NCBI RefSeq assembly: GCF_004217095.1
Contig: NZ_SHKO01000001.1
Coordinates: 1,488,001-1,552,000 of the forward strand
Origin: Advenella incenata
Lineage (GTDB): Bacteria; Pseudomonadota; Gammaproteobacteria; Burkholderiales; Burkholderiaceae_B
DNA: 64,000 nucleotides
Reading direction: 5' to 3'
Under the pieces are notes generated by a model. It was not told where the DNA came from and made no database searches. It saw only the letters and a list, made by a program, of their open reading frames with translations. Position 1 is the first letter of the stretch, and every line of letters begins with the position of its first letter. Both the position numbers and the translations under genes were made by a program. Shown in pieces: positions 3,610-33,464 of the stretch.

Positions 3610-3691
3610 TCGGCCGTTACGATGCCTATCGGACACACGCCATGCGATCTGTTGCATAATTGAATAAACAGTCCAATCAGGTGGTGCCTCA

Positions 3692-8831: not shown

Positions 8832-10019
8832 ATGCACACACCAATAGCACTTTCTGACCGCATTCAGCCTGGCGAATGGCTGGGCATGCTGGGCGGCGGC
8901 CAGCTGGGTCGCATGTTCTGCCACGAAGCGCAGAAACTGGGATACAAGGTCGTTGTTCTGGATCCGTCCGGCAACAGTCCTGCTGGCATGGTGGCCGAGC
9001 GGCATATGGCCGCAGCCTACGATGATATTGTTGCACTCAGGGAGCTGGCCGCGATCACGCCCGCGGTCACGACGGAATTTGAAAACGTGCCGGCCAGCAG
9101 TCTGAAGCAGCTATCTGCGAGCTGCCGCGTGACGCCTGGCGCGGCGGCGGTCGCCGTCGTGCAGGACCGGATTGCCGAAAAGGCATTTATCAGTGCCCAG
9201 GATATTCCTGTTGCGCCTTATTGCGAGGTTCGCGAGGTGAGTGACCTGGAGCAGGCGCAGGACGCCCTGTTTCCCGGCATTCTGAAAGTAGCGCGCCTGG
9301 GTTATGACGGCAAGGGCCAGCAACGGGTCTCGACCCGCACTGAAGCCATTGAAGCTTTTCGTGACTTTGGTCAAATACCCTGCGTGCTTGAAGCCATGTT
9401 GCCGCTGGATCATGAAATTTCAGTTGTCATGGCGCGGGCGATCAGCGGAGAGACTGCGATTTTTCCGATTGGCATTAATACCCATGAAAACGGCATTCTT
9501 GCCAGTACGGTTGTCGCCTCAGGTCTGATCAACGAAGACCTGGCCAGGCAGGCCAGGGAAGCCGCCCTGCGCATTGCCGAAGGACTCAATTACCAGGGCG
9601 TGTTGTGTGTCGAATTCTTTGTGCTGTCCGACGGTCGCCTGATTGCAAACGAAATTGCCCCACGTCCGCACAACAGTGGCCACTACACGATGGACGCCTG
9701 TGTCACCAGCCAGTTTGAACAGCAGGTGCGTGTCATGACGGGCATGCCGCTGGGAGCGACAGACCTGCTCACGCCCGTGGTCATGCTCAATATCCTGGGC
9801 GACTGCTGGTTCAATGGCAATGCCAGCCATGCGCGGGAACCGCAATGGCATGACATTCTTGCCATCCCGGGTGTATCGTTGCATCTGTATGGCAAGGACG
9901 AGCCGCGCCCGGGACGCAAGGTCGGGCATATCAACGTTGTGGGCACCACCATTGAGCAGGCCAAGGAACGGGCACGGGATGTAATCCGTAAAATGGGAAT
10001 TCGCACCGTTTTGTCCTGA
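8832..10019 (+). CDS. purK: N5-carboxyaminoimidazole ribonucleotide synthase
   Basis: A 395-residue ATP-grasp enzyme that carboxylates AIR with bicarbonate and ATP, feeding PurE. Visible parts: GMLGGGQLGRMF at the N-terminal pre-ATP-grasp domain, the ATP-binding stretch FPGILKVARLGYDGKGQ, the LPLDHEISVVMAR strand, and VEFFVLSDGRLIANEIAPRPHNSGHYT with the metal-binding Glu and Asn residues. The length is slightly above E. coli PurK (355 aa). It closes the purCEK operon; sua5 follows after 95 nt, which may contain its own promoter. Confidence 0.96.
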   Translation: MHTPIALSDRIQPGEWLGMLGGGQLGRMFCHEAQKLGYKVVVLDPSGNSPAGMVAERHMAAAYDDIVALRELAAITPAVTTEFENVPASSLKQLSASCRVTPGAAAVAVVQDRIAEKAFISAQDIPVAPYCEVREVSDLEQAQDALFPGILKVARLGYDGKGQQRVSTRTEAIEAFRDFGQIPCVLEAMLPLDHEISVVMARAISGETAIFPIGINTHENGILASTVVASGLINEDLARQAREAALRIAEGLNYQGVLCVEFFVLSDGRLIANEIAPRPHNSGHYTMDACVTSQFEQQVRVMTGMPLGATDLLTPVVMLNILGDCWFNGNASHAREPQWHDILAIPGVSLHLYGKDEPRPGRKVGHINVVGTTIEQAKERARDVIRKMGIRTVLS

Positions 10020-10114
10020 CCTGCTTTAACCGTATACCTATACCCTGTAATCTTAAGAAGCAGTCCCGGCAATCCTGGATTGCACCCGATCACCACGCGA
10101 CACAGAACCTTTCC

Positions 10115-11125
10115 ATGACCGATATGACTAGCTCGATTGACCATGCCGCGCGCGTTTTGAACGAAGGCGGCTTGGTGGCGCTGCCTACCGAGACGGTTTA
10201 TGGTCTGGGCGCCGACGCCGAGAGTGCGCAGGCCGTGGCCAAAATCTACCAGGCCAAGCAGCGGCCAGCCAACCATCCACTTATTGTTCATATCGCGCCG
10301 GAGGCGGATCTGTCCTATTGGACGCGGGACGTTCCGGCAGAAGCGCAAAAGCTGATGCAGGCGTTCTGGCCGGGACCATTGACGCTGATCCTGCCGAAAA
10401 ACCCGGCCATCACCGATGCGGTGACCGGCGGACAAGACAGTATCGGCCTGCGATGCCCGTCGCACCCGGTCGCGCTGGCGCTGATCCGCGCTTTTGCCCG
10501 CCTGCGCCCCTCGGGGCAGGCCGGTATTGCAGCGCCTTCTGCCAACCGGTTCGGCCATGTGTCTCCGACCAAAGCCCAGCACGTACGCGACGAATTTCCC
10601 CAGGAATGTGCTGATGGCATGCCGGTACTGGAAGGCGGCGACACCGACATCGGCATTGAATCGACGATTGTGGACGTCTCGCGCATTGCGCAGGGCATGC
10701 CGGTCGTACTGCTTCGTCCTGGTCATATTTCCGCCGCGCAACTGGCGCAGGTACTGGGCTATACCCCGGCCAGCCCGGACGCTGCGGTTCCTCGTGCATC
10801 GGGCACGCTGAAGGCCCATTACGCGCCGCAAACCCGGCTCAGCCTGTTCGACGCCACAAACCTGGAAGGCATGCTGGCCGCCCGACCCGGGCACGAGCGC
10901 TGGGCCATCTATGCGTTTGACGCGCCGCCACCGGCCTTGCCTGCACAGCTGCAGTGGCACCAGGTGTCTTCTGACCCGGTCCGCTATGCACATGACCTGT
11001 ATGCACTGCTGCGCGAGGCAGACCAGCAGAATTTGGACCATTTGCTGATCCAGCGCCTGCCCGCAGACCAGCGGTGGGATGCGGTTGCCGATCGCCTGCA
11101 GCGCGCCGCCGCCGCTTTCGAATAA
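10115..11125 (+). CDS. L-threonylcarbamoyladenylate synthase (Sua5 type)
   Basis: A 336-residue enzyme making threonylcarbamoyl-AMP for the t6A37 modification of ANN-decoding tRNAs. The N-terminal YrdC domain (about 1-205) has GGLVALPTETVYGLGADA, the KQRPANHPLIVH basic patch and SIGLRCPSHPVA; after a linker the C-terminal Sua5 domain (about 235-335) starts at SGTLKAHYAPQTRLSLF. The two-domain length marks it as Sua5 rather than TsaC. It follows purK in the order conserved across Burkholderiales. Its stop codon lies inside the left arm of its terminator. Confidence 0.93.
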   Translation: MTDMTSSIDHAARVLNEGGLVALPTETVYGLGADAESAQAVAKIYQAKQRPANHPLIVHIAPEADLSYWTRDVPAEAQKLMQAFWPGPLTLILPKNPAITDAVTGGQDSIGLRCPSHPVALALIRAFARLRPSGQAGIAAPSANRFGHVSPTKAQHVRDEFPQECADGMPVLEGGDTDIGIESTIVDVSRIAQGMPVVLLRPGHISAAQLAQVLGYTPASPDAAVPRASGTLKAHYAPQTRLSLFDATNLEGMLAARPGHERWAIYAFDAPPPALPAQLQWHQVSSDPVRYAHDLYALLREADQQNLDHLLIQRLPADQRWDAVADRLQRAAAAFE

Positions 11126-11164
11126 AGCATTCCCGGCCACGGGTTTGGTCAGGAATGCTTTATT
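11121..11164 (+). terminator. Terminator of sua5
   Basis: AATAAAGCATTCC (11121-11133) and GGAATGCTTTATT (11152-11164) are perfect 13-bp arms around an 18-nt loop, followed by TTCC. The sua5 stop (11123-11125) is in the left arm. Symmetric A and T runs would let it work in both directions. Confidence 0.8.
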
Positions 11165-11275
11165 TTCCAGTCTGTTACGCCAATTGCAGCAGTTTATTCT
11201 GGAAAACGCATGGCCGCTTTGCCAGTTGGCCTAAACCGGATTATGATGATTCTATTGGAATCTCCGGAACACAAT

Positions 11276-19766: not shown

Positions 19767-20471
19767 TTATTTGCTGTCGGACAGAACCAATTTTTCCAGG
19801 TAATCCAGATCCTCACGTACCAGACGCAGCGATTCCCTTACATCCGGCACTTCGGGTCGCCTTGCTGCATCACGCAACAGCGAATTGACAGCCATGTCAG
19901 CCATGATCCCGGCGACATTGGCGCGATCCAGTCTGCCCTCGGGCTTATACCACCAAGCCGACCAGTTGCACATGCCAATCAGACTGAAAGCGGCTACATG
20001 TGCGTCAACCATGCGAAACACGCCTTCCCGGATCCCTCTTTCTATGACATGGCTGAAGTTCTCAAGCACATTACGGCGTGCATTTTGCACTGATATGCGT
20101 TGTTTCGGTGACAAGTCGGCCTCGGTACGATCTGCAACGCGAAACTCTGCAGGGCGGGACAGTATCAGGTCGGCGTGCTGGGTGACCAGCGCGCGCAACG
20201 CCGTCACCGGGTCAAGATCGTCGCGGGCAACCGTGTCGCCGGCCAGTTTGCGCGCCGCACTGAGCACTTCCTCTGTCAGCGATTGCTGAATCTGTTCCTT
20301 GTTCTTGAAATAGTAATACACCGCCGTACGGCTCAATCCCAGCGCTTCGGCAATGTCCTGGATGCTGGTGCCGCCGGTGCCTCGTTCAATGAAAAGCGTT
20401 GCCGCCACATCCAGGATGGCACTGCGTAGCGCTTCTCCTTTGAGCGTAGCCTTTGTAGAAATGTCGTTCAT
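19767..20471 (-). CDS. TetR-family transcriptional regulator of the adjacent aromatic-acid operon
   Basis: A 234-residue repressor. The N-terminal DNA-binding domain is clear: RSAILDVAATLFIERGTGGTSIQDIAEALGLSRTAVYYYFKNKEQI (about residues 16-61). The C-terminal ligand domain is of the type found next to CoA-dependent catabolic operons (e.g. HADLILSRPAEFRVADRTEADLSP), but its ligand cannot be deduced. It starts with a GGAG site and is divergent from the hydrolase-ligase-hydroxylase operon; two matching inverted repeats lie between them. The natural effector is probably an acyl-CoA intermediate or the aromatic acid itself (inference). Confidence 0.9.
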   Translation of the reverse strand: MNDISTKATLKGEALRSAILDVAATLFIERGTGGTSIQDIAEALGLSRTAVYYYFKNKEQIQQSLTEEVLSAARKLAGDTVARDDLDPVTALRALVTQHADLILSRPAEFRVADRTEADLSPKQRISVQNARRNVLENFSHVIERGIREGVFRMVDAHVAAFSLIGMCNWSAWWYKPEGRLDRANVAGIMADMAVNSLLRDAARRPEVPDVRESLRLVREDLDYLEKLVLSDSK

Positions 20472-20544: not shown

Positions 20545-20564
20545 ATTTGACGGATTCGTCAAAT
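20545..20564. promoter_or_regulatory. Probable TetR operator 1
   Basis: TTGAC-GGATTC-GTCAA at 20547-20562, extended to perfect 8-bp arms (20545-20564). Its centre is exactly 30 bp from the second copy (three helical turns), and it lies between tetR and the operon, suited to controlling both promoters. Confidence 0.75.
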
Positions 20565-20576
20565 ATTAAAATTTAA

Positions 20577-20605
20577 TTGACATTAAAGTCAAATAATTAT
20601 CTAAT
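20577..20605 (+). promoter_or_regulatory. Probable TetR operator 2 overlapping the operon promoter
   Basis: TTGAC-ATTAAA-GTCAA at 20577-20592 repeats the design of operator 1. Its left half is also a perfect -35 box TTGACA (20577-20582); TCTAAT (20600-20605) lies 17 bp downstream as a possible -10. A protein bound here would block RNA polymerase. A further GTCAAAT half-site follows at about 20608. Confidence 0.7.
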
Positions 20606-20648: not shown

Positions 20649-21908
20649 GTGGCAACAAACCCATCTGCAAATCCGGTTACCGCGGGGTTTCTGAACACGG
20701 ACTGGAATCCACGCGATTTGCCCGCAGGCGCCTCGACACGCAACGTGGTCCTGCGCTGCGCCGATGGCGCCGCCACCTCTGGCTCTCTGTATCAGCCAGC
20801 CGGCAAGCGCTGCAGGACGGTAGTATGCATCATGCATCCACGTGAGTTCATGGCATGCCACTACCTTATTCCAGATATTGTTGCGGCAGGCTGTGCCGCC
20901 TGGTCTCAGGGTGCACGATCAGTGGGCAATGACCTGCGCCTGGAGCATGAATTTGCATTGCATGATGTCACCGCAGGCCTGACCTTTCTGCGTGAACAGG
21001 GATTCGACAATATTGTTCTGCTGGGCAATTCGGGCGGCGCGGGGCTGTATTCGCTTTACGCTGAACAATCGGCACTGCCTGGAGCACAACGGATTGCGCG
21101 CAGCCCGGCAGGAAAGCGCACCGGCTTGGGCGAGCTGGACATGCCTTGCGTTCAGGGCATGGTTTTGGTCGGCCCGCATCCTGGTCAGGGTGCATTGTTA
21201 ATGAATTGTATTGACCCGTCTGTCGCACAGGAGGGTGATGCCTTGTCTGTCGTGCCGCACCTGGACCCGCTGGATCCGGCAAACGGCTACAAGCCGAATG
21301 GGCAGGCGCGTTACTCGGCGCAATTTATCGAACGCTACCGCGCCGGCCAGCACGCCAGGGTGGCTCGCCTGGATGCGATCGCGCATCAAATGATCGACAC
21401 GCGGCTAAAGGCGCGAGAACGGGTGAAAACGCAGGCTGACAGTTCTGCAGATGGCAAACGGCTGGCCGCTCATACACCGGTGTTGATCGTCTGGCGCACA
21501 GATGCAGACTTGCGTTGCCTGGATCTTAGCCTGGATCCTTCTGACCGGCACCCCGGCTCCTTATGGGGAAAAAATCCTTATTCCTCCAACTATGGTGCTG
21601 TGGGGTTCGCCCGTTTTTGTACGCCCGAGAGCTGGCTGTCAACCTGGTCTGCGCTTTCATCCAATGCCAGCCTGTCGCGTACCGCCCCGGCGATCGACAT
21701 ACCATCACTGGTGATCGAATACACGGGTGATCAGGCCTGCTTTCCGGGTGATGTACAGACGATTTACGACGCACTGGCGGCGAACGATAAGCAGCATCTT
21801 CGCATTCGCGGCGACCACCATGGCCGCGCCCTGACCGACGATGAGGAGCCGGGCCGCTATCAGGCCGGTCGCGATCTGGCTCGCTGGTTGCAGGCGCGTT
21901 TTCTTTGA
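20649..21908 (+). CDS. Alpha/beta hydrolase of the aromatic-acid operon
   Basis: A 419-residue alpha/beta-hydrolase. The nucleophile elbow is GNSGGAG with Ser128; likely acid and base partners are the Asp in LVIEYTGDQACFPGD and the His pair in RGDHHGRALTDDE near the C terminus. There is no signal peptide, so it should act in the cytosol. The start is GTG 20649, with AAAGGAG seven bases upstream; the in-frame TTG at 20631 lies before that site and is rejected. It could hydrolyse a ring-fission product, an ester or a thioester; the substrate is unknown. It is first in the TetR-controlled operon, with the VOC gene 23 nt downstream. Confidence 0.8.
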   Translation: MATNPSANPVTAGFLNTDWNPRDLPAGASTRNVVLRCADGAATSGSLYQPAGKRCRTVVCIMHPREFMACHYLIPDIVAAGCAAWSQGARSVGNDLRLEHEFALHDVTAGLTFLREQGFDNIVLLGNSGGAGLYSLYAEQSALPGAQRIARSPAGKRTGLGELDMPCVQGMVLVGPHPGQGALLMNCIDPSVAQEGDALSVVPHLDPLDPANGYKPNGQARYSAQFIERYRAGQHARVARLDAIAHQMIDTRLKARERVKTQADSSADGKRLAAHTPVLIVWRTDADLRCLDLSLDPSDRHPGSLWGKNPYSSNYGAVGFARFCTPESWLSTWSALSSNASLSRTAPAIDIPSLVIEYTGDQACFPGDVQTIYDALAANDKQHLRIRGDHHGRALTDDEEPGRYQAGRDLARWLQARFL

Positions 21909-21931
21909 TTAATGCCTAATGGAGATTTGAC

Positions 21932-22828
21932 ATGACTGTTTTTCACGATACGCCTGGTGCACTGCGGCTGCATGGCGTTGACCATACTGCGAGACCGACC
22001 TGGCGCTTGCGCGAGACGGTCGCGTTTTATCGCGATGTGCTTGGCTTGCGTCTGGCCCATGTTATTTCTGCTCGCGGGTGGGGGCCAGCGAGCCACCCGG
22101 ATTTTCTGCATTTCTTTTTCGATAGCGGCAATGGCAGCACGATCGCGTTTTTCTACTATCTGGGCTCTCAGGAACCTGAAACCATGCGGGGGCGCAGCAG
22201 TATGCGACCATTGCCTGAAGATCATGTCGCAGACGCGACGCATACTGCCTGGCTGGTGCGCAGTGAAGACGAGCTCAAAGCCTGGAAACAAAGGCTTGAG
22301 GATGCGAATCTGGACGTCTCGGTCGAGACGCGTCATGAGGTGATTGAGTCGATCTATGTTCGCGATCCCAATGGCTATTTCATTGAATTTACCCGTAAAT
22401 TGAGACCGTTGGGTCGGGTGGACGAAGTTGACGCCGATCTGACGATACAGGCAGCGATACAGGCCGAAGACAGCGCGCTTTCCAAAGGCGAGCGCATCCG
22501 TCATATTGACGAAGTATGGGCCCGCAAGGCGACATTGCTTGAGCAGCAAGGCGCAATGGCTCAAATGCCGACTGCGGGCGTTCGCATCTTTGTGCCCTGC
22601 GTCGAGGAGTTTGCGCCGCTGGTGCGTGATGCAGAACAACGCGATGACTGTCAGGTTATCAAGAGTGAATATTTCGATTGTATTTGTGCGGACGAGCCGC
22701 TGGAGTTTCGCCGCAAGGTGCTCGGCTTGAAACCCGCTGTGTGGTATGGCCTGTTCACAGGCGGTGTCAGCGGCGTCATTGAAGTGCTGGACCGGGACCG
22801 GGTCCGAATCGTGCCCGCGGCAGGCTGA
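21932..22828 (+). CDS. VOC-superfamily metalloenzyme (extradiol dioxygenase/glyoxalase-like)
   Basis: A 298-residue protein with paired beta-alpha-beta-beta-beta modules. The first half has candidate metal ligands of the 2-His-1-Glu type: His in LHGVDHTARPTWRL, His in DATHTAWLV and Glu in DPNGYFIEFTRKL. The N-terminal RLRETVAFYRDVLGLRL is the typical VOC helix. The last third (about 200-298) is a less typical module (RIFVPCVEEFAPLV). Known members include type I extradiol dioxygenases and glyoxalases, so it is a candidate ring-opening or isomerising enzyme for this operon; that role is inference from context. GGAG precedes the ATG. Confidence 0.8.
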   Translation: MTVFHDTPGALRLHGVDHTARPTWRLRETVAFYRDVLGLRLAHVISARGWGPASHPDFLHFFFDSGNGSTIAFFYYLGSQEPETMRGRSSMRPLPEDHVADATHTAWLVRSEDELKAWKQRLEDANLDVSVETRHEVIESIYVRDPNGYFIEFTRKLRPLGRVDEVDADLTIQAAIQAEDSALSKGERIRHIDEVWARKATLLEQQGAMAQMPTAGVRIFVPCVEEFAPLVRDAEQRDDCQVIKSEYFDCICADEPLEFRRKVLGLKPAVWYGLFTGGVSGVIEVLDRDRVRIVPAAG

Positions 22829-22851
22829 TTTATTGGCAGGAGACAACAGAC

Positions 22852-24540
22852 ATGCAAAATATTCGTTACCCCATAGAGGGTGTTATTTATCATGAAAAGG
22901 AGCGCGCACGCACCTGGTATGACAATGGTGCGTGGCAGCAGCAGACGGTTGGCCACTTGCTGCAAGCCACGGCGCGTCGGTGTCCAGAACGACAAGCGAT
23001 CATCACCGAGGAGGGCAGCGTCACGTTTGCGCAATTGGATGAGCAAACCGAGCGGCTGGCTGCGGCGCTGCTGAACCTGGGCCTGGACCCTGGCGATCGT
23101 GCTATCTTTCAGATGGGCACCACGCTTGAGACCGTCATTGCGTTGCTGGCCTGTTATAAAGCGGGCATCGTACCAGTGTGTTCATTGCCGCAGCACCGGG
23201 AACTGGAAATTGGTCAATTGGTCCGTCAGTCTGGCGCACGCGGATACTTTGTGCAGGCTGACTTTAGCGCCTTTGATCTGGTTGCTTTCGCGCAGCAGAT
23301 GATGTCCGAGCATGCCGGATTGACACAACTGGTTGTGGCGCGCGGGACTTCATCGGCCGGCAACGATATGCGCGCGCTGATCGAGGCCATGCCGCACGCG
23401 CGAGCGCAGGCAATTGTCGCCGAGCACGCACCAGCCTGCGAGGATGTACTGGCGTTCCAGTTGTCTGGTGGCACGACCGGCATTCCAAAAATCATTCCGC
23501 GTTTTCATGCTGAGTACATAGCGCACTCACTTGCCTGTGCGAAGAACTATCAACTTGGCCAAGATGATCGTTTCATTTGGGCTTTGCCGTTATTGCACAA
23601 TGCCGCGCAGGTGTATGTCCTGATGCCGGTCATCGCGATGGGCGTGTCAGCAGTGCTCATGCCCCGGGTCGATGTGCCGCTTATGTTGACGCTGATTGAG
23701 CGGTATCGGGTGACGCGGGCAATTTCAATTGGGCCGATCGCCCCACAATTGATGGCTTATTCCGATCTGGCGCGGCATGACTTGTCGTCGCTACGTCTAT
23801 TTATCACAATGAGCGCAGCCGAGCGACTGGAAGAACATTTGCGCATTCCATGCTCCAACTTGTTCGGTATTACCGAGGGCTTGCTGCTTGGATCACCAGC
23901 CGGTGCAGCGCCTTACCTGCGCCACAAAACGCAGGGCCGCTCGGGCTGCGCCGATGACGAAATCCGCTTGCTGGTGCCCGGGACAGAAGTGGGCGTTGAA
24001 ACGGGACAGATGGGCGAATTGTGTTTTCGCGGTCCTGCTACCGTTCCCGGCTTCTTCGACGCACCGGCAGCCAATGCCCAGGCGTACACGTCTGATGGCT
24101 TTTACCGAACAGGCGACATGATGATAGAGCGGATTGTTGATGGCCGGTCCTATTACAGCTTTGAAGGAAGGTTGCGCGACAACATCAATCGCGGCGGCGA
24201 AAAGATCGGATGTGAAGAGGTTGAATCACTGGTCAGTGCACATCAGGCCATTTCCGAAGCACGTCTTGTCGCCATGCCAGACCCCATTTACGGAGAAAAG
24301 GGCTGCGTCTTCATCACATTGCGGCCTGGTCACGCCGCGCCTTCTGTCCAGGAATTGATGATGTTTCTCGTTGAAAAGGGCTTGGCCAAATATAAGTGTC
24401 CCGAACGCGTCGAGGTGATTGAGGCCTTTCCGGTTACCAAAGTGGGCAAGCTGGACAAAATGATGTTGCGCAGAATGATTGCAGAATTAATCAATCACGA
24501 GGCCCGGCAGGGCACGGGGGAACGTAATGATAAGTACTGA
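22852..24540 (+). CDS. Aryl-AMP/aryl-CoA ligase (EntE/DhbE-like, ANL superfamily)
   Basis: A 562-residue adenylating enzyme. ANL motifs are complete: LSGGTTGIPKIIPR (A3), LFGITEG (A5), FYRTGDMM (A7), GRLRDNINRGGEKIGCEEVE (A8) and the catalytic Lys in VTKVGKLDK (A10). The aryl pocket motif LPLLHNAAQVYV keeps the His-Asn pair that in DhbE/EntE contacts ortho-hydroxybenzoates; the residue six after the His is Tyr instead of the Ser tied to 3-OH recognition in DhbE, so salicylate or a related 2-substituted benzoate is a better guess than 2,3-dihydroxybenzoate. No siderophore carrier or NRPS gene is nearby, so a catabolic CoA-ligase role is likely. It overlaps the thioesterase gene by 14 bp. Confidence 0.85.
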   Translation: MQNIRYPIEGVIYHEKERARTWYDNGAWQQQTVGHLLQATARRCPERQAIITEEGSVTFAQLDEQTERLAAALLNLGLDPGDRAIFQMGTTLETVIALLACYKAGIVPVCSLPQHRELEIGQLVRQSGARGYFVQADFSAFDLVAFAQQMMSEHAGLTQLVVARGTSSAGNDMRALIEAMPHARAQAIVAEHAPACEDVLAFQLSGGTTGIPKIIPRFHAEYIAHSLACAKNYQLGQDDRFIWALPLLHNAAQVYVLMPVIAMGVSAVLMPRVDVPLMLTLIERYRVTRAISIGPIAPQLMAYSDLARHDLSSLRLFITMSAAERLEEHLRIPCSNLFGITEGLLLGSPAGAAPYLRHKTQGRSGCADDEIRLLVPGTEVGVETGQMGELCFRGPATVPGFFDAPAANAQAYTSDGFYRTGDMMIERIVDGRSYYSFEGRLRDNINRGGEKIGCEEVESLVSAHQAISEARLVAMPDPIYGEKGCVFITLRPGHAAPSVQELMMFLVEKGLAKYKCPERVEVIEAFPVTKVGKLDKMMLRRMIAELINHEARQGTGERNDKY

Positions 24541-25003
24541 GTACGTTGTGAACGAAGCGCCGTTTGTGATTCGTCGACGGGTCAAGTGGGGCGATTGCGA
24601 TCCTGCAGGGGTGGTCTACACCGTCACATTCAGCGAGTATGTCATCTCGGCTGCTGAGCTTTTTTACGGCCACCTGCTGGGTGGCACACCGCAGCGCGTG
24701 AAGGACGAGCATGGCTTTGGCACGCCAACGCGTGCTTTGGCCTTTGATTTTCGCGCCTCACTCTGGCCTGATGAAGAGTTTGACATGGCTGTCTATGTTG
24801 AAAATATCGGCCAGCGAACTTATACCTTGCACATCGCCGGTAGTGTGCGTGGTCAGGCAGCGTTCGATGCACGATTGACGCCCATTTGTGTGGCTCGCGG
24901 CGAGCGCCGGGCCATTGCCTTGCCCGACATACTGCGCGATGCGCTGCTCGGCTATCAGCATGACTGCGAACAGCAGGCGCCATATGGGAGTACGAACCAA
25001 TGA
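24527..25003 (+). CDS. Acyl-CoA thioesterase, hotdog fold (4-hydroxybenzoyl-CoA thioesterase type)
   Basis: A 158-residue single-hotdog protein. RRRVKWGDCDPAGVVYTVTFSEYV is the 4HBT signature with the catalytic Asp, followed by the long helix and the FDFRASLWPDEEFDMAVYVENIG strands. It should release an aromatic acid from CoA in the cytosol, as expected after hydroxylation of a CoA-activated aromatic acid. The start overlaps the ligase end and its stop overlaps the flavoprotein start (ATGA), so ligase, thioesterase and hydroxylase are translationally coupled, which argues for one pathway. Confidence 0.87.
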   Translation: MISTEYVVNEAPFVIRRRVKWGDCDPAGVVYTVTFSEYVISAAELFYGHLLGGTPQRVKDEHGFGTPTRALAFDFRASLWPDEEFDMAVYVENIGQRTYTLHIAGSVRGQAAFDARLTPICVARGERRAIALPDILRDALLGYQHDCEQQAPYGSTNQ

Positions 25004-26166
25004 AGATTGCAGTTATTGGCGCCGGCCCCGCCGGCCTGTATTTTTCTCTCCTGGCAAAGAAACAGGATCCTGCCCATGATATACGGGTTTATGAGCAAAA
25101 TCCGCGAGGCGCCACCTACGGTTGGGGCGTGGTATTTTCCGACGTGGGACTGGCTTTCCTGCGTGAGGCCGATCCTGCATTTTTCGACACATTCGTGGCG
25201 CATCACGAGCGCTGCGACTATATGCAGATTATTCACCAGGGTACGAGTGTCCAGGTGCACGGCAATCATTTCTCACGCACCGCGAGACTGGATATGCTGG
25301 ATGTCCTGGAGCAGGCATGCCTGCGGGCCGGCGTGCAAATCGAGCACGATTGTCGCATTGACGATATTGAACAGCTGGCTGCCGAGGTTGATATGGTGGT
25401 GGCGGCAGATGGCAGCAATAGCGCAGTTCGCAAGCAATACACCGATCAATTCCGCCCGAGTTTTGAGCGCCGCCGCAATAAATTTGCCTGGTATGGAACG
25501 CATCAGCGCTTTCATCCTGTCTCGCTGATCTTTCGTGAAACGGACCATGGCATTTTTATTGCGCACAGTTATCAATACAGTGCGACGTTAAGTACGTTTC
25601 TGGTCGAGGTAGACCCGGATACCTGGCACCGCGCTGGCCTGGATGTTGCCAGCGAAGAGCAGAGTCGTCGCTATTGTGCCGAGGTTTTTCGCGCCGATCT
25701 GGGCGCGAACGAACTGCTGACCAATCGCTCTCTGTGGTTTGAAGCAAATATCGTTCGTAATGAAAACTGGTCATACCGTAACATCGTCTTGCTGGGCGAT
25801 GCCTTGCGGACGGTTCATTTTTCGCTTGGTTCAGGTACCCGCATGGCCATGCAGGATGCCATCGCACTCAATGAGGGACTGCGGCAATATCCGGGCGATG
25901 CCCAGGCTGCATTTGGCGTATTCGAATCCCGGCGCAGGCAGGCCTCATCCAATTTCCAGCATGCAGCAGCACGCAGCCTGGACTGGTACGAGAACGTCGC
26001 GGACAAGATGCAGCTGGATCCGGTGTCCTTTGCCTATGACTACATGAGACGCACCGGGCAGGTCAGCCATGATGATTTGCGCCAACGGGATCCGGGTTTT
26101 ACTGCCGCCTATGAGCTAAGGCATCCCACCGAGTTTCCACAGAATGCATATGACGTAAACAATTAA
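25000..26166 (+). CDS. FAD-dependent aryl-CoA monooxygenase (salicylyl-CoA 5-hydroxylase-like)
   Basis: A 388-residue group A flavoprotein hydroxylase. GAGPAG at residues 7-12 binds FAD; TYGWGVVFSD, the VDMVVAADGSNSAVRK block, KFAWYGTHQRFHPVSLIF and the second FAD motif LLGDALRTVHFSLGSGTRMAMQDA are those of the salicylyl-CoA 5-hydroxylase and 2-aminobenzoyl-CoA monooxygenase group, which act on CoA thioesters. It is a single-domain enzyme without the reductase extension of 2-aminobenzoyl-CoA monooxygenase/reductase. With the ligase and thioesterase it would turn salicylate into gentisate by way of the CoA esters; substrate identity is inferred, not seen. GGGAG precedes its coupled ATG. Confidence 0.87.
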   Translation: MKIAVIGAGPAGLYFSLLAKKQDPAHDIRVYEQNPRGATYGWGVVFSDVGLAFLREADPAFFDTFVAHHERCDYMQIIHQGTSVQVHGNHFSRTARLDMLDVLEQACLRAGVQIEHDCRIDDIEQLAAEVDMVVAADGSNSAVRKQYTDQFRPSFERRRNKFAWYGTHQRFHPVSLIFRETDHGIFIAHSYQYSATLSTFLVEVDPDTWHRAGLDVASEEQSRRYCAEVFRADLGANELLTNRSLWFEANIVRNENWSYRNIVLLGDALRTVHFSLGSGTRMAMQDAIALNEGLRQYPGDAQAAFGVFESRRRQASSNFQHAAARSLDWYENVADKMQLDPVSFAYDYMRRTGQVSHDDLRQRDPGFTAAYELRHPTEFPQNAYDVNN

Positions 26167-26205
26167 ATAACAGACCCGATAACCATCCATTCAATTGGAG
26201 GAGAC

Positions 26206-27180
26206 ATGAAAAAAATACTTACTCTGGCAACGCTCATCCTGGGCGTACTGACCTGTTCGGCGCAGGCGCAATCCTCAACCTATCCGACTCGCAGTGTTCG
26301 TGCCGTTTTGCCCTATTCGGTCGGAAGCGGTCCGGACACGGTCGCAAGAATGATTGGGGAGCAATTGTCGGCGGCATGGAAACAGCCGTTCATTGTCGAG
26401 AATAAACCCGGCGCCAATGGGTGGCTTGCTCTCGGAGAGGTCAAACGATCTGCAGCGGACGGGTACTCCGTGGCGATCGTGGATAATACCCATATGACGC
26501 TGCAGCCTCATTTGTATAAAAAAATGCCGTTTGATCCTGCGCGAGATTTTGTCGCGGCAGCACCCATTTACTCTACGCACTTTTTCATTGTCGTTTCAGC
26601 CAATTCGCCGTGGCGCAATGTTGAGGATCTGGTCCAGGCCGCGAACAAAGCGAACGGACATCTCACGTACGGTACCTGGGGGATAGGCAGCGTTGCGCAT
26701 CTGGGGTCGACTATTTTGCAGCAACGGACACAGACGACCATGACGCACATTCCATACAAGGATTTGTCACAGTTATATACCGCAGTGGCAAATGGCGATG
26801 TGGACTGGGCTTTTGGTACAGCAGCGACAGTACAGAATCTCTATCAGGCAAAGCGGGTGAAGTTGCTCGCGCTGGCGGCTCCTGCCCGTCTGGCTTCGTA
26901 TCCTGATGTGCCCACGGTAGCACAGGCAGGTGGGCCGAATGACTTCGAACTGAAGACCTGGGTGGCTGCGTTTGCCCCTCGGGGTACGCCGCAAGATGTC
27001 ATTGAGCGCATCAATACGGCGATCGCTGCTGCGTTACGCACACCTGCCATCAAGCAGCGTTTTGAAACCTTTGGTTTTAATGCATGGTCTGTCGATGCCT
27101 CTGGCTTGGCGCGGGCGGTGGATGAGGACTCGGCACATTTTGGCCAGATCGTACAGAAGGCCAATATTGCCCTGGACTAG
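26206..27180 (+). CDS. Tripartite tricarboxylate transporter receptor (Bug/TctC family)
   Basis: A 324-residue periplasmic binding protein with a signal peptide (LTLATLILGVLTCSAQAQ). The Bug family signature YPTRSVRAVLPYSVGSGPDTVARMI, the NKPGANGWLA loop, LTYGTWGIGSVAHLG and PTVAQAGGPNDFELKTWVAAFAPRGTP are present. Such receptors bind carboxylates, often aromatic acids, and this one is the last gene of the aromatic operon, so it probably recognises the pathway substrate. The TctA/TctB membrane parts are not in the window and would have to be encoded elsewhere. AGGAG precedes the ATG and a hairpin follows the stop. Confidence 0.9.
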   Translation: MKKILTLATLILGVLTCSAQAQSSTYPTRSVRAVLPYSVGSGPDTVARMIGEQLSAAWKQPFIVENKPGANGWLALGEVKRSAADGYSVAIVDNTHMTLQPHLYKKMPFDPARDFVAAAPIYSTHFFIVVSANSPWRNVEDLVQAANKANGHLTYGTWGIGSVAHLGSTILQQRTQTTMTHIPYKDLSQLYTAVANGDVDWAFGTAATVQNLYQAKRVKLLALAAPARLASYPDVPTVAQAGGPNDFELKTWVAAFAPRGTPQDVIERINTAIAAALRTPAIKQRFETFGFNAWSVDASGLARAVDEDSAHFGQIVQKANIALD

Positions 27181-27265: not shown

Positions 27266-28504
27266 CTATTTTATGGCGCCATACTTTTTCAGAATGTCGA
27301 CGGTTTTGTCTATCGGCAATGCCTCCACAACACGGCCGTCCCTGCCCGTGGTTGTTTTTGCTTTAAGCAACGAGTTATAAATGGCTTCCTCGGTTGCTTC
27401 TACGGTCGCCAGAAAGAGCGGTGACATGGCGTTATTGCCAAGCACTTTCGTTTCCCGTATTGCATCAGACGAATTGATCCGGCCCTCCGGTGCAGTGCTA
27501 AAAGCAATGACGTAATCTCCACTGCCATTGGTCGCCGGCGATCCCGTGCGGGCCAGCCCGAGCATCGCTCTTTTGGCCAGTCGTTCCAGGTTTCTGCTAC
27601 CCAGTGGTGCATCGGTGGCAACAATCATCATGATGGAGCCATCCGCACGATCGCTGACGTGATCAAGCTGGATCGGATCATTCTGCGTTAGCATCAATGC
27701 GCTATTGCCGGCATGCGCGCTGACCTTTTTACCTTCAAGCGCTTCTTTCAAATAGTAGCGGCCCAATTCCTTACCTACAGGTGCGCCGTTCATGGTAAGC
27801 ACGCCGCCGAAGTTGGTCTGCACCAGCACGCCCACCGTATAGCCGCCTGCGCTTTCAGGCACAATCCGCGATGACGTGCCGATGCCGCCCTTGAATCCGA
27901 AGGCCTCTGTGCCAGTGCCAGCACCCACGGCGCCTTCTTCGACGGGTCCATTACTGGCCGATTTTAATGCGGCGAATACTTGCTCCTGGCCAACGTGCCG
28001 GCCACGCAGGTCGTTAAGCTGGCCATCATTGGTCTCGCCCACCACGGCATTGATCGACCTTACGTCCTCGTTGCCCGGCAACGCGAGCATCCAGTCCAGC
28101 AAGGCGTCGGCCACCCGTGGCACGTTAAGCGTGCCGGTCAACAGGATGGGCGTCTCGATCTCGCCCAGTTCGCTGATCTGGGTTGAGCCCATGAGTTTAC
28201 CGAACCCGTTACCGACATGAACAGCGGCTGCCACCTTCTCTTTGAAGAGGTTGCCCGCATGGGGCAGGATTGCCGTTACGCCGGTACGTATGTCGTCGCC
28301 CTTGTTCAGTGTGGTCTGTCCTACCAGCACACCGTTGACGTCTGTGATTGCATTCAGTTTGCCGGGCGGCAGCACGCCGCTGATCAGACCGATATCGCGC
28401 GCCCGTGGGCGGTTGTCATTGTCATTGGCAAGTGCCTGTACGTGAGCACAGGCCAAGACAGAGGCTAACAGGACTGAAAGTAATTTTGGTGCAGCACAGC
28501 GCAT
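27266..28504 (-). CDS. P1-family peptidase (DmpA/BapA-like aminopeptidase), exported
   Basis: A 412-residue Ntn-type hydrolase with a signal peptide (LLSVLLASVLACAHVQALA), so it acts in the periplasm. GKLNAITDVNGVLVGQTTL, GVTAILPHAG, GGIGTSSRIVPE and the self-processing site ATNGSGDYVIAFST are those of the P1 family: the Gly-Ser bond in NGSGD is cut and the Ser becomes the N-terminal nucleophile. Family members release N-terminal L- or D-amino acids, amides or beta-amino acids. ATG 28504 follows GGAG by six bases; an in-frame TTG 12 nt upstream precedes that site and is not used. It is the last gene of the leftward cluster and about 280 bp from the deacylase gene. Confidence 0.9.
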   Translation of the reverse strand: MRCAAPKLLSVLLASVLACAHVQALANDNDNRPRARDIGLISGVLPPGKLNAITDVNGVLVGQTTLNKGDDIRTGVTAILPHAGNLFKEKVAAAVHVGNGFGKLMGSTQISELGEIETPILLTGTLNVPRVADALLDWMLALPGNEDVRSINAVVGETNDGQLNDLRGRHVGQEQVFAALKSASNGPVEEGAVGAGTGTEAFGFKGGIGTSSRIVPESAGGYTVGVLVQTNFGGVLTMNGAPVGKELGRYYLKEALEGKKVSAHAGNSALMLTQNDPIQLDHVSDRADGSIMMIVATDAPLGSRNLERLAKRAMLGLARTGSPATNGSGDYVIAFSTAPEGRINSSDAIRETKVLGNNAMSPLFLATVEATEEAIYNSLLKAKTTTGRDGRVVEALPIDKTVDILKKYGAIK

Positions 28505-28781
28505 TTGGATCTCCAAAAAAAGAACAACAATAAATTGAAAATAGCTGAAAAAAAATCCGGATATAAGGTGTCATGGGCATGTGCTTGCTGGCGCGTCGAG
28601 CCTGGCGTTTACACGCCTACACAATGATTGCCAAGCCCGATGCTCGGCCTGTTCAAGGTCTTGCGGCTAAGTTCGCGCATTGATTTGTACGCGACGTATG
28701 GTTGCTATGTCGGCCTGGACAAATGGTGATCAGTTAGCCAAGCAGGCGATCAAACGACGACGGCGGAGCACGCAAAAAAAA

Positions 28782-30233
28782 TCAGCTGGTTCGGTTCAGG
28801 ACCCGGCCCGGGCGGGCACCGCTTGGCTTGCCGTCTTGCCATGCGACGATGCCGTTGACTAGCACCGTTTTGATGCCTATTGAGGGCAGGATGGGATCAG
28901 CATACGTTGCCGCGTCTTCGATGGTACTGGCGTTGAACAGGGTGATGTCGGCAAATGCGCCTTCTCGAATGATGCCGCGATCTCTCAGGCCGAAATTTCC
29001 TGCGGTCAGGCCGGTCATCTTGTGTACAGCAGTTTCAAGTGGGAACAGGTTCAGCTTGCGGCCGTAGTGGCCCAGTACACGCGGGAAAGAGCCCCACAGG
29101 CGCGGATGCGGTTTTTCGTCATGCGGCAAGCCGTCAGAGCCAATCATGGTCTGATCGAATGCCAGTATGTATTGAACATCGGAATCATTGGCCTGGTGGT
29201 AAATGGCGCCCGCCGGCGAGAGCTTGTCTATCACCTCCTGTTGGGAGCCACCCAGCTGTTTCATGATATCGGGCAGATCCATGCCAGCGTACTGCGGCAG
29301 ACTCTTGGACCATGTCACAGTGACTCGGTTGGCGTTATTGGCCATTTTTGATGTAAGAATCGTGGAGGATGCCGCGTAGGGGTAGCAATCCAGGCAGATG
29401 GACTGCGATGCCATATGGCCTTCAATGAATTTCAGGGTCTCGGCTGCGCGGCCATAGTTCTTGATGCCGGCAACTTTAAAATGGGAAATGACCACGGGTA
29501 CGTTGACTTCTCGACCGATGCGAAATGTTTCCGTCAATGCTTCCAGAATGTGATCGCCCTGATTGCGCATATGCGTGCAATAGATACCGCCGTGCGCATT
29601 TAATGGTTCGCAAATCGCGATAATTTCTTCTGTCGTGGATGCCGTCGCAGGTGCATACGACAAGCCTGTTGAAACGCCGATTGCGCCGGCCTGCATGGCT
29701 TGGTCCACCAGTTCTCGCATGGCGGCAATTTCGCTTTCGTTGGCGGGCCGATCCAGATCATCCATGGTGGCCACCCGTAGCGTGGAGTGGCCAACCAGCA
29801 TGGCGCAGTTGGTGGCCGCTGGCTGCGTTCGCAATGCCTCAAGGTAATCGGAGAATCGGGGGTAGCGGAACCATTCTCCTGCTTCGTCAAGCAGATTCAA
29901 CGGCGGTGTGACGGGATCAGGAATGGGACGCGGCATGGGCGCCAGCGAAATCCCGCAATTGCCGCCCACGATGGTGGTAACTCCCTGGCTGATCTTGGGC
30001 GCCATGTCTCCATGCGACAGCATCAGACGGTCGTCGTGCGTATGCGCGTCGATAAAACCGGGAGCAAGAACCAGGCCAGCAGCATCGATCTCGGCGTCAG
30101 CGGTGGCCTGGGCCAGATCGCCGATGCGCGCAATGCGGTCGCCCTTGATGGCAACGTCGCCGTCATAGCGCTGGGCGCCGCTTCCATCAACGATTGAAGC
30201 GTTGCGGATCAGGACATCGTAATGAGTATTCAT
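28782..30233 (-). CDS. N-acyl-D-amino-acid deacylase (D-aminoacylase)
   Basis: A 483-residue amidohydrolase-superfamily enzyme. It has the small N-terminal beta domain (YDVLIRNASIVDGSG), the metal-binding AHTHDDRLML, TTIVGGNCGISLAP with the Cys typical of D-aminoacylases, CTHMRNQGD, VVISHFKV, and MIGSDGLPHDEKPHPRLWGSFPRVLG near the C terminus with the catalytic Asp. It has no signal peptide and should free D-amino acids from N-acyl forms in the cytosol. It lies between two P1 peptidases and next to a peptide receptor, which suggests use of D-amino-acid-containing peptides. AAAAGG precedes the ATG. Confidence 0.9.
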   Translation of the reverse strand: MNTHYDVLIRNASIVDGSGAQRYDGDVAIKGDRIARIGDLAQATADAEIDAAGLVLAPGFIDAHTHDDRLMLSHGDMAPKISQGVTTIVGGNCGISLAPMPRPIPDPVTPPLNLLDEAGEWFRYPRFSDYLEALRTQPAATNCAMLVGHSTLRVATMDDLDRPANESEIAAMRELVDQAMQAGAIGVSTGLSYAPATASTTEEIIAICEPLNAHGGIYCTHMRNQGDHILEALTETFRIGREVNVPVVISHFKVAGIKNYGRAAETLKFIEGHMASQSICLDCYPYAASSTILTSKMANNANRVTVTWSKSLPQYAGMDLPDIMKQLGGSQQEVIDKLSPAGAIYHQANDSDVQYILAFDQTMIGSDGLPHDEKPHPRLWGSFPRVLGHYGRKLNLFPLETAVHKMTGLTAGNFGLRDRGIIREGAFADITLFNASTIEDAATYADPILPSIGIKTVLVNGIVAWQDGKPSGARPGRVLNRTS

Positions 30234-30325: not shown

Positions 30326-31924
30326 TTACTCTTCTGCCTTTTTCATGTTCCAGAACACGGTGATCGGTGAATCGAGCACACCGCTTAGCCTATTGTTGTA
30401 GGCGGCAGGCACCACGAACTGACCCATCGGTCCAATGACCCCCTCGTCTATAGCGAGTTTTTGAATCTGTTCGGTAATCTGCTTGCGGTCGGCGGGCACC
30501 GTAGCGCGGGCGAATTTCATTCGCAGCGCTTCTATCTCTGGCACGCTGGGCCACCCGGACCAACCACTTGCGCCGGGCGCAGAGACGGTGCCGTTGCTGA
30601 ATGGATCGCCACTTGTGGCAAGCGTGCTGTACGTTGAATACAGGCTCCAGCCACCGTCGCTGGCCGGTTTTTTGTTTTCCCTCAGCGCGACCAGGGTTTG
30701 CCAATCCATTGCCTTGAGCTGCACGTTAAAGCCAGCCTTGCGCAAGGCTGCTGCGATGACCACGGGCGGGGCCGAAAGCATGGCGATATCAGTCGGGTGC
30801 ATAATCACCACCGGGGTATTATCATATTTGGCTTCTTTGAGCAATTGTCGAGCTTTTTCTATGTTCGAGGGAACAACGATGTCTTCGCCATAGGCGTTAG
30901 CGTATGGCGTGCCGCATCCAAGAATGGCCGCACACGTTTTGTAGTAGTCAGGGTTGCCTATCATCGCGCTCAGAATCTCTTTCTGGCCGATGGCATACAT
31001 GGCAGCTTGCCGAATGAGCTTGTTATTGAAGGGCGGCTGCAGGTGATTGAAGCGGTAATAGCCCCAATTTCCCAGTTTGTCGACGACGGTCGCCTTGATG
31101 TCCTTGTTGCCTTCAAGCATGGGCAGCAGATCGAAAGGCACTTGCTGTATATAGTCGATCTCATCGTTCATCAAGGCATTGATGGCGGTCATCTGATCGG
31201 GCATGCTGATCCACTGGACGCGATCCACATTGACGACTTTGCCGCCAGCGGTCCAATTGACCGGTTCCTTGCGTGGTACGTACGCTTTGTTTTTTTCGTA
31301 AACGACTTTAAGGCCAGGCTGAAACTCTGAGTTGACAAATTTGAACGGCCCTGAGCCGATGTATTCCTTGATGGGCTGCGTAGCGGGTGTTTCGGCAATA
31401 CGTTTGGGCATCATGAACGCCGGGCGCGAACTCAGTTTTGCCAGTCCTTGCAGAAGCAGGTCTGTCGGCCCTTTCAGTACGATCTGAAATGACTTTTCAT
31501 CGAGCACTTTCATTTCGGCAATCATGGGCATGAGCACCATGCCGATAGAATCTTTTTGGGCCCACCGTTTGATCGATGTGACACAATCGTCTGCGACGAC
31601 AGACGCGCCATCGTGCCATTTAAGGCCATCCCGTAATGTGAACGTGTAGACCTTTGCATCAGCTGACACTTTCCAATCGGCCATTTGTGGCTTGACCTCG
31701 AAATTGGCATTTAGACCAACCAGCGTGTCGTAAATCATGTAGCCATGATCGCGTGTAATGTAGGCCGTGGTCAAAACCGGGTCAGTGACGCGCAGGCCTG
31801 ACTGCATCACGGTGGTCACGGTTTGCGCAGTAGCGGCTGAAGCCAGCAAAAATGAGAATGCAGCGCACGTTGCGCCAAGTGCCAGCGCGGGTGCGGTGAA
31901 AAAGGAACTGAGCTTGAATGACAT
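30326..31924 (-). CDS. ABC transporter solute-binding protein, dipeptide/oligopeptide type (family 5)
   Basis: A 532-residue periplasmic receptor with a signal peptide (cleavage after the ALASAATAQ-type site, about residue 33). HGYMIYDTLVGLNANFEVKPQMADWKVSADAKVYTFTLRDGLKWHDG is the family 5 signature, and LATSGDPFSNGTVSAPGASGWSGWPSVPEIEALRMKFARA is the C-terminal block. It should deliver peptides or amino-acid conjugates, but no permease (DppBC) or ATPase (DppDF) genes are adjacent. GGAG precedes the ATG. Immediately upstream lies a decayed second copy of its C-terminal region. Confidence 0.92.
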   Translation of the reverse strand: MSFKLSSFFTAPALALGATCAAFSFLLASAATAQTVTTVMQSGLRVTDPVLTTAYITRDHGYMIYDTLVGLNANFEVKPQMADWKVSADAKVYTFTLRDGLKWHDGASVVADDCVTSIKRWAQKDSIGMVLMPMIAEMKVLDEKSFQIVLKGPTDLLLQGLAKLSSRPAFMMPKRIAETPATQPIKEYIGSGPFKFVNSEFQPGLKVVYEKNKAYVPRKEPVNWTAGGKVVNVDRVQWISMPDQMTAINALMNDEIDYIQQVPFDLLPMLEGNKDIKATVVDKLGNWGYYRFNHLQPPFNNKLIRQAAMYAIGQKEILSAMIGNPDYYKTCAAILGCGTPYANAYGEDIVVPSNIEKARQLLKEAKYDNTPVVIMHPTDIAMLSAPPVVIAAALRKAGFNVQLKAMDWQTLVALRENKKPASDGGWSLYSTYSTLATSGDPFSNGTVSAPGASGWSGWPSVPEIEALRMKFARATVPADRKQITEQIQKLAIDEGVIGPMGQFVVPAAYNNRLSGVLDSPITVFWNMKKAEE

Positions 31925-32423: not shown

Positions 32424-33464
32424 TCAGCACGGCCAATCAGTAATCAAGCTGGTAATATTTTGACGTGTATGCCCATTTCTCCCGGTGACCGATTCTGCAC
32501 TCCACAGGGCTTTCAGGATCGCCTGTTCTACGGCTTCTGCGCATGCCTGAAATAGTGGATCGAGCAGCGCGTCATGCAGCAATTGCAAAACCGGCATGTC
32601 CGGGCCAGGTATATGGGGAACGGTATAGGCGGTTGAAAAGGCGAGCGCTATATCGCCGCTGCCATGGCCAAATATTGAACCGGTCCGGCACAGGCCGGCC
32701 GCCGCGCGGGAAGAGACGCGGCGCAGCTGGCGTGCATCCAGGGGCGCATCTGTTGCAATGAGAATGATGATGGAGCCTTTTTCAGGCGAGTCGTCGTGAG
32801 CGTCCTGCAAAGCCTGTAGTCGAGTTCCAATCGCTTGTCCAGCAATCGTGAGCAGCGGCAATTTGCCGAAATTGGCAAGCACCAATGCGCCTACGGTGTA
32901 ATGGCCAACACCGACGACCGGTGCAATACGCGATGCAGAACCAATACCACCCTTGAGCTGGAAACAGGACATGCCTCGTCCGGCGCCAACGGAGCCTAGT
33001 TCAAAATCGGGCTGCGCGCCGGCATGTGCTGTCAGATAATCAGCCTGTGTCAGGTCCATTGCCTGGATATCGTTCAGATAGCCATCATTACATTCAAATA
33101 CCAGGGGATTGACGGTAGGCAGCGTTCGACCGATTTCCGGATTGGCACGCACTGCCTGACGGATTTGGGCCTGGGCCATCGTGGCGACCGCGAATGTATT
33201 CGTGAGGGCGATGGGGGTTTCCAGTACGCCCAATTCTTCGATTTGCAGCAGGCCAATGCTCTTGGCAAAACCGTTGAGCACGGTGACCGCTGCTGGAACC
33301 TTATGCAGAAAAATATTGTCGGGATGTGGTTGAACCACAGTCACGCCGGTTTGTATCGCGCCGTCCGATTTGGTGACATGGCCGACGGTGATCCCGCCTA
33401 CGTCTGAAATGAGGTCCCTGGCGCCTGATTGCAAGGTGCCAATACGCGGGGCAAGAGTGGTCAT
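32424..33464 (-). CDS. P1-family peptidase (DmpA-like), cytosolic paralogue
   Basis: A 346-residue paralogue of the exported P1 peptidase but without a signal peptide. DLISDVGGITVGHVT, GVTVVQPHPDNIFLHKVPAA, ECNDGYLND, GAGRGMSCFQLKGGIGSASR and the self-cleavage site FGHGSGDIALAFST (Gly-Ser bond) are visible. It should process internally and remove N-terminal residues from peptides or amides in the cytosol, complementing the periplasmic enzyme at 27266. It lies 57 bp downstream of the RpiR regulator gene, on the same strand, so the two are likely co-transcribed. Confidence 0.9.
   Translation of the reverse strand: MTTLAPRIGTLQSGARDLISDVGGITVGHVTKSDGAIQTGVTVVQPHPDNIFLHKVPAAVTVLNGFAKSIGLLQIEELGVLETPIALTNTFAVATMAQAQIRQAVRANPEIGRTLPTVNPLVFECNDGYLNDIQAMDLTQADYLTAHAGAQPDFELGSVGAGRGMSCFQLKGGIGSASRIAPVVGVGHYTVGALVLANFGKLPLLTIAGQAIGTRLQALQDAHDDSPEKGSIIILIATDAPLDARQLRRVSSRAAAGLCRTGSIFGHGSGDIALAFSTAYTVPHIPGPDMPVLQLLHDALLDPLFQACAEAVEQAILKALWSAESVTGRNGHTRQNITSLITDWPC

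Follow-up and report, generated by a model that had tools for sequence, protein, structure and literature searches.

A stretch of 64,000 nucleotides from the genome of Advenella incenata (here called the window; G000:C1:1488001-1552000 of a 4.9 Mb genome) holds an operon of six co-directional genes behind a divergent TetR-family gene (Table 1), and this operon is one copy of a cassette that is present in many bacteria. With modest confidence we read it as a salicylate degradation route whose lower-half enzymes are unrelated to the textbook ones. We infer the following catalytic steps, substrate and order of thioesterase and dioxygenase: a coenzyme A (CoA) ligase would convert salicylate to salicylyl-CoA, a flavoprotein would hydroxylate this at position 5 to gentisyl-CoA, and a thioesterase would release free gentisate; a VOC metal enzyme (two His, one Glu) would cleave the para-diol gentisate at the 1,2 bond to maleylpyruvate, which an alpha/beta hydrolase would split with water into maleate and pyruvate (C7H6O6 + H2O = C4H4O4 + C3H4O3). 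Maleate would become fumarate through a maleate isomerase, whose gene is part of the cassette in most relatives but lies elsewhere in the Advenella incenata genome. This sequence (salicylate, gentisate, maleylpyruvate, maleate plus pyruvate, fumarate) is the simplest reading because it uses every conserved gene and leaves no step empty. A broader proposal strikes us as roughly an even call, namely that Proteobacteria and Actinobacteria possess a complete gentisate pathway free of cupin and FAH enzymes, linked with CoA-dependent 5-hydroxylation of salicylate under the control of a TetR operator and consisting of a VOC gentisate 1,2-dioxygenase with a small domain (fused or as a separate gene), a serine-type alpha/beta maleylpyruvate hydrolase and maleate isomerase.

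A cassette recurring across bacteria

Scanning one genome per species gave 403 relatives of the VOC protein. From these 403 we took the 80 best matches, among them close congeners, as loci of at most 20 kb, and added 15 further loci from plasmid records. The set used for gene counts has 93 loci (13 plasmid loci L012-L024, L031, and L032-L111 minus L039; the more distant L025 and L026 were excluded), searched by tblastn with the window proteins and a Variovorax isomerase as queries. As the loci were gathered by VOC similarity, the VOC gene is present in 93/93 by construction; the ligase was found in 92, the hydrolase in 91, the flavoprotein in 89, the thioesterase in 61 and the maleate isomerase in 60. 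The constancy of ligase, hydrolase and flavoprotein shows that the gene arrangement is not due to chance. Few genomes in an even draw from the order have the VOC protein (2/300 at E 1e-20, Advenella incenata included), and distant relatives occur in 6/398 genomes of the phylum, again with Advenella incenata included. The cassette reaches into Alphaproteobacteria (Azospirillum, Tistrella, Pseudosulfitobacter), Gammaproteobacteria (Pseudomonas) and Actinobacteria (Rhodococcus, Tsukamurella, Streptomyces).

A sequence-only reading of the window had described a compact operon in which the ligase, thioesterase and flavoprotein genes overlap and which lacks a cupin gentisate dioxygenase and a fumarylpyruvate hydrolase. 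All of this is borne out: the seven genes lie at approximately the positions that it gave, the same gene set recurs across the 93 VOC loci, the ligase and thioesterase genes overlap by 14 bases and the thioesterase and flavoprotein genes by 4 (the remaining gaps in the operon are 23-39 bases), and a profile search of the operon proteins returned no match to a cupin or FAH model. It had also assigned the Bug receptor to dedicated uptake; the gene is there and uptake is probable, but the receptor is not a fixed part of the cassette, being within range in 31/80 loci. Transport is variable altogether, with an MFS-type family in 31 loci (typed from one representative, and with one copy far from the cassette) and TRAP or ABC-type transport genes at other cassette loci. 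What that reading missed were the cassette maleate isomerase, two palindromes upstream of the operon and a gentisate cluster on another contig.

An Asp/Glu-racemase-type protein is encoded in the cassettes of Variovorax, Bordetella genomosp. 2, Achromobacter, Pigmentiphaga, Pandoraea, Cupriavidus and actinobacteria. The Variovorax copy matches the solved maleate isomerases 4fq7 (E 2e-83) and 2xec (E 9e-62), and the Streptomyces copy matches 2xec at E 3e-115; by this similarity the protein is a maleate isomerase. Thirty genome loci have no local isomerase, and 16 of these 30 were checked genome-wide. Altogether a maleate isomerase gene was found in 20/20 cassette genomes checked, the 16 having been picked because the fetched locus lacked the gene; in four of the 16 (L041, L042, L059, L085) it lies about 12-20 kb from the VOC gene, apparently on the same contig. 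As a control, 4/150 genomes of the order, Advenella incenata included, have the gene at E 1e-60. The difference is significant (Fisher p 4e-23, Advenella incenata removed from the control), the control being an even draw of the order that is unmatched to the cassette genomes in genome size or lineage. The E limit was 1e-20 for the cassette genomes and 1e-60 for the control, and the best match of all 20 cassette genomes passes 1e-60 too.

In Advenella incenata the isomerase gene is at C1:243562-244302; its product is 57% identical to the Variovorax cassette protein and matches maleate isomerase at E 1e-84. It would serve the window operon, an inference only, since it lies 1.26 Mb away and shares no operator with the operon. 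As a separate observation, this gene stands with a LysR-like gene near an apparent three-subunit molybdenum hydroxylase (L029, G000:C1:234000-253000, positions 647-5101 and 9557-10306, judged by eye), perhaps a pyridine-acid pathway.

The palindrome TTGAC-N6-GTCAA occurs twice in the window, where 0.03 matches are expected by chance, and both copies are in the gap that separates the TetR gene from the operon; the extended form TTTGAC-N6-GTCAAA is found nowhere else in the Advenella incenata genome. Across the 80 genome loci, 40 carry the palindrome at -500..+150 of the cassette start, against 9 matches in the other 1.54 Mb, and 74 have a TetR homologue within range. In three Pseudomonas (L040, L171, L172) a separate maleate isomerase shares the operator, the palindrome starting 75-83 bases before the isomerase match; in L040 this isomerase is behind the TetR gene, and its distance from the VOC gene is about 12 kb in L171 and about 20 kb in L172. 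More Pseudomonas copies of the palindrome were seen (L172 15090-15105; L041, L042, L043 and L059 between 8015 and 8261), some of them 450-700 bases (approximately) ahead of the cassette and others close to different reading frames, and these may indicate a larger regulon.

Table 1. Genes and probable operator sites of the cassette in the window (window positions)
Feature	Position	Strand	Basis
TetR-family regulator	19767..20471	-	PF17932 + PF00440; divergent from operon
Palindrome TTGAC-N6-GTCAA, probable operator site 1	20547..20562	.	motif scan
Palindrome TTGAC-N6-GTCAA, probable operator site 2	20577..20592	.	motif scan
Alpha/beta hydrolase, proposed maleylpyruvate (C-C) hydrolase	20649..21908	+	GTG start; AlphaFold model + Foldseek
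VOC metalloprotein with C-terminal extra domain, proposed gentisate 1,2-dioxygenase	21932..22828	+	PF00903, E 2e-15
EntE-like aryl-acid adenosine monophosphate (AMP)/CoA ligase, proposed salicylate-CoA ligase	22852..24540	+	TIGR02275 355 bits; PDB relatives
4HBT_2 hotdog thioesterase, proposed gentisyl-CoA thioesterase	24527..25003	+	PF13279
Single-domain flavin adenine dinucleotide (FAD) monooxygenase, proposed salicylyl-CoA 5-hydroxylase	25000..26166	+	N-terminal half of NF006101
TctC/Bug substrate-binding protein, probable uptake	26206..27180	+	PF03401, E 2.5e-63

Protein families behind the proposed steps

The His-His-Glu set that the sequence-only reading saw in the VOC protein (H18, H104, E152) is identical in 94/94 sequences (the 93 loci and the window), as are H60, H135 and Y142. 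The predicted model (predicted local distance difference test score, pLDDT, 87.5) has the VOC fold with its paired beta-alpha-beta-beta-beta modules, and both the best PDB sequence match and the best Foldseek match are 9u42, a VOC-type homogentisate 1,2-dioxygenase, with which all six of these residues are common in the alignment. At least 19 loci (L014, L016, L018, L022-L024, L094-L102, L105-L107, L109) encode the C-terminal domain (residues ~215-298) in a small gene of its own, which in many cases overlaps the VOC gene; the small partner protein has no Pfam match in the two copies tested. Elsewhere a shorter VOC protein is accompanied by a related alpha/beta hydrolase (L026 7953-11506, L162 5189-7038), in L026 additionally with a PRK08132-type flavoprotein and a DUF2783 gene; this pair is perhaps a sister module acting on another para-diol.

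The hydrolase model (pLDDT 89.9) has Foldseek matches led by esterases and lipases, and Pfam and NCBIfam models gave the protein no informative name. S128, D361 and H390 are present in 92/92 sequences, likewise R90, R283 and R300. A Rhodococcus opacus relative (32%) overlaps a cupin gene whose product weakly resembles homogentisate 1,2-dioxygenase (46.6 bits, cut-off 510.75; L160 4695-7014), so this hydrolase family pairs with another dioxygenase type too, and action on para-diol ring-fission products would fit its partners. The L160 neighbours are two cysteine hydrolases and an annotated leuD gene. The sequence-only reading had raised the VOC protein and the hydrolase as a possible different ring-opening route; this gains support, and since maleate isomerase belongs to the cassette, the route can be specified as probable para-diol 1,2-cleavage followed by hydrolysis to maleate.

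For the upper half, the same reading had proposed CoA activation, hydroxylation on the thioester and release of the acid. The families agree with this. The ligase has as its best PDB matches the salicylate-AMP ligases 5wm2 and PchD; its score against TIGR02275 ((2,3-dihydroxybenzoyl)adenylate synthase) is 355.4 bits, below the cut-off of 723.55, which by sequence makes it a relative of that family and not that equivalog. H249 and N250 (the HN motif) and K533 are present in 93/93 sequences, N250 and K533 aligning with N235 and K519 of DhbE, the Asn of the HN motif and the catalytic Lys of that enzyme. The flavoprotein matches NF006101 (bifunctional salicylyl-CoA 5-hydroxylase/oxidoreductase) at 382.8 bits over the N-terminal half only (cut-off 1078), and is thus not of the full-length two-domain type; it also matches VioD. 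For the hotdog thioesterase there is a precedent in a gentisyl-CoA thioesterase of Bacillus halodurans, described in an excerpt of PMC516016.

Flavoprotein relatives of 40-44% identity cluster with gentisate-dioxygenase-like cupins on plasmids of Rhizobium AB2/73, Agrobacterium 13-2099-1-2, Rhizorhabdus wittichii RW1 and Variovorax boronicumulans, three of these four clusters having FAH-family genes. A 15 kb region of Sulfitobacter CB2047 has thioesterase, ligase and FAH genes, with no cupin among the genes listed. An excerpt of PMC9219206 predicts that an Allorhizobium vitis cluster, which may be a locus of this kind, degrades salicyl-CoA via gentisic acid. Only plasmid records gave cupin neighbours for cassette-free flavoproteins, and 12 regions around such homologues in the order had no match to either gentisate-dioxygenase seed; in one of the 12 (L144), a MaiA-type gene is located some 2 kb upstream. 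The trees considered below do not place the flavoprotein in one subgroup; midpoint rooting did group the window flavoprotein with the cupin-locus rows, and we dropped this as evidence because the unrooted and outgroup trees leave a three-way fork. Another candidate that was set aside is L081, which has the VOC and hydrolase genes without the usual flavoprotein and might have been a salicylate 5-hydroxylase pairing; its Rieske protein has a below-cut-off match to the AndAc model and is 67% identical to Rhodococcus ring-hydroxylating oxygenases.

Advenella incenata has a second, fusion-type flavoprotein of 784 amino acids (L152, G000:C2:988000-1007000, positions 8844-11198), adjoined by apparent SDR, acyl-CoA dehydrogenase and ligase genes. 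The further genes of L152 and of L153, which also has a fusion-type flavoprotein, resemble a 2-aminobenzoyl-CoA cluster, and L152 is probably the cluster for this compound (anthranilate) in the Advenella incenata genome.

Points against the proposed route, and its rivals

Several observations weigh against a salicylate route of this kind. The 9u42 match has only 26% identity, and the whole-model superposition is poor (TM score 0.24, root-mean-square deviation 17.7). No C-C hydrolase was prominent among the 50 Foldseek matches listed for the hydrolase model, and the thioesterase was not detected in 32/93 loci. The distance of the Advenella incenata isomerase from the operon and its want of a palindromic operator have been given above; likewise the separate isomerase gene of L173 and L174, two of five cassette genomes examined, has no palindrome. 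Ligases of the cupin clusters, where present, are 26-28% identical to the window ligase and belong to another family (benzoate-CoA type in the one tested). In a 48-row flavoprotein tree the window's 9-row clade, a 24-row set and a 15-row set join at one three-way fork, which is still unsplit when two distant outgroup rows are added; the 24-row set (99/96) holds six rows from cupin-type loci (two of them from L158, where no cupin was listed) and eight other cassette rows, and the 15-row set holds all 10 bifunctional rows and two actinobacterial cassette rows.

Classical gentisate genes also accompany the cassette, and a possible objection is that the operon only makes gentisate, that a classical cupin cluster opens the ring, and that the VOC protein and hydrolase act elsewhere, in detoxification or on another substrate. 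Contig C5 of Advenella incenata indeed has a classical 3-hydroxybenzoate/gentisate cluster with a 3-hydroxybenzoate 6-monooxygenase (706 bits, above cut-off) and Bug, cupin, FAH and MaiA-type genes. Its gentisate-dioxygenase-like cupin is the sole TIGR02272 match in the genome (254 bits, below the cut-off of 442). The sequence-only reading had suggested a genome search for a gentisate dioxygenase, and this cupin is what such a search yields. Among 50 of the 80 loci, representing 48 genomes, a TIGR02272 match at E 1e-20 was found in 41/48, 39 of them above cut-off, and on a Streptomyces plasmid gentisate-dioxygenase-like genes stand beside the cassette itself. (In that Streptomyces chartreusis plasmid, L022 4104-12086, cupin, FAH and mycothiol-type maleylpyruvate isomerase genes come before the VOC cassette, with transposase genes between.) We nevertheless consider this objection unlikely to be right. 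Seven of the 48 genomes (three Pseudomonas and one each of Bordetella, Paraburkholderia, Azospirillum and Burkholderia; Azospirillum sp. TSH64, from soil, is an example of a cassette strain with no such cupin match) have no TIGR02272 match at E 1e-20, although these are drafts of unreported completeness in which assembly gaps are possible; the cassette thus seems often to coexist with the classical route and, apparently, not to depend on it. Moreover, the VOC protein and hydrolase are as constant as the ligase and flavoprotein, and a maleate isomerase would have no evident role in a fumarylpyruvate branch.

The isomerase itself invites another explanation, in which the cassette acts on a different ortho-substituted acid (a hydroxypyridine carboxylate or anthranilate) and maleate arises via an amide as in nicotinate catabolism. 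Maleate isomerases are characteristic of nicotinate and pyridine pathways, and EntE-like ligases can use several aryl acids with an ortho-hydroxy group. The flavoprotein has low similarity (E 1e-8) to 6-hydroxynicotinate 3-monooxygenase, the rooted tree does not part it from the bifunctional type of the 2-aminobenzoyl-CoA-like clusters, and a Variovorax locus has amidase and nitrilase genes on the opposite strand 8 kb upstream. Such a pathway would need at least an amidase, however, and none was seen among the recurrent neighbour families looked at, with no search aimed at amidases; the five unlabelled families present in at least 11 loci are an MFS transporter and an aldehyde dehydrogenase (by Pfam) and an ABC ATPase, an NTF2-like protein and an SDR (by eye). 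We find this explanation rather doubtful. We regard as very improbable the remaining alternative, that the ring is cleaved on the CoA ester, with the thioesterase acting later and free gentisate never formed: the thioesterase is the least constant of the four operon enzymes beside the VOC protein (61/93 loci), yet the nearest known VOC enzyme, 9u42, acts on a free acid (homogentisate, per its depositors' name), and 1,2-cleavage of the ester would produce an alpha-keto thioester, which is chemically awkward.

Significance and comparison with known systems

Salicylate serves plants as a defence hormone and often arises when pollutants are broken down. Cupin gentisate dioxygenase and FAH hydrolase are the markers by which pathways of this kind are annotated; if the proposed salicylate route is true, genomes with only the VOC route would be scored as unable to open the ring. 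It would also give a function to the large family pair of VOC protein and alpha/beta hydrolase and to the small partner protein, show once more, after the Acinetobacter homogentisate enzyme, that the VOC fold can cleave para-diols, and make it possible to test directly how frequently unrelated enzymes have taken each other's place in aromatic catabolism. By title and abstract in the open-licence literature, we found no publication describing a VOC gentisate dioxygenase or this cassette, which is widespread and, apparently, had no assigned function before.

Next to the operon in the window is a group of minus-strand genes (27266-28516, 28782-30233, 30326-31924, 32424-33464) in which two S58-type peptidase genes (the first by Pfam, the second by resemblance) flank a D-aminoacylase-like amidohydrolase gene and an apparent solute-binding protein gene; this is perhaps a cluster for D-amino-acid or peptide utilisation.

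A close parallel to the predicted upper half is the CoA-dependent route from salicylate to gentisate in Streptomyces sp. WA46 and Rhodococcus sp. B4, which an excerpt of PMC4600096 describes with an AMP/CoA ligase, a salicylyl-CoA 5-hydroxylase and hydrolysis to gentisate. In those bacteria gentisate 1,2-dioxygenase opens the ring. Unlike that pathway, the window operon has no cupin dioxygenase, and has the VOC protein, the alpha/beta hydrolase and, in relatives, maleate isomerase instead. The Acinetobacter enzyme 9u42 shares with the window protein the VOC family, the His-His-Glu set, the H60/H135/Y142 residues and the para-diol type of substrate, but is 182 amino acids long and lacks the C-terminal extra domain; a search of the open-licence literature turned up no publication on it. 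The cassette isomerase is a close homologue of 4fq7 (from nicotinate degradation in Pseudomonas putida S16), but is tied to an aromatic-acid cassette and not to a pyridine pathway. HbzF is an FAH-family protein, unlike the serine alpha/beta hydrolase that is the candidate here. The direct hydrolysis of maleylpyruvate to maleate that we propose is nevertheless what an excerpt of PMC5658364 describes for the HbzF route of Pseudomonas alcaligenes NCIMB 9867. Finally, the gentisate-type clusters on Rhizobium and Agrobacterium plasmids (L154, L155) have a homologous flavoprotein (41-43%) and a CoA ligase, with a thioesterase in L155, but their ligase is of the benzoate-CoA family and their lower half consists of a cupin, a MaiA-type isomerase and an FAH protein.

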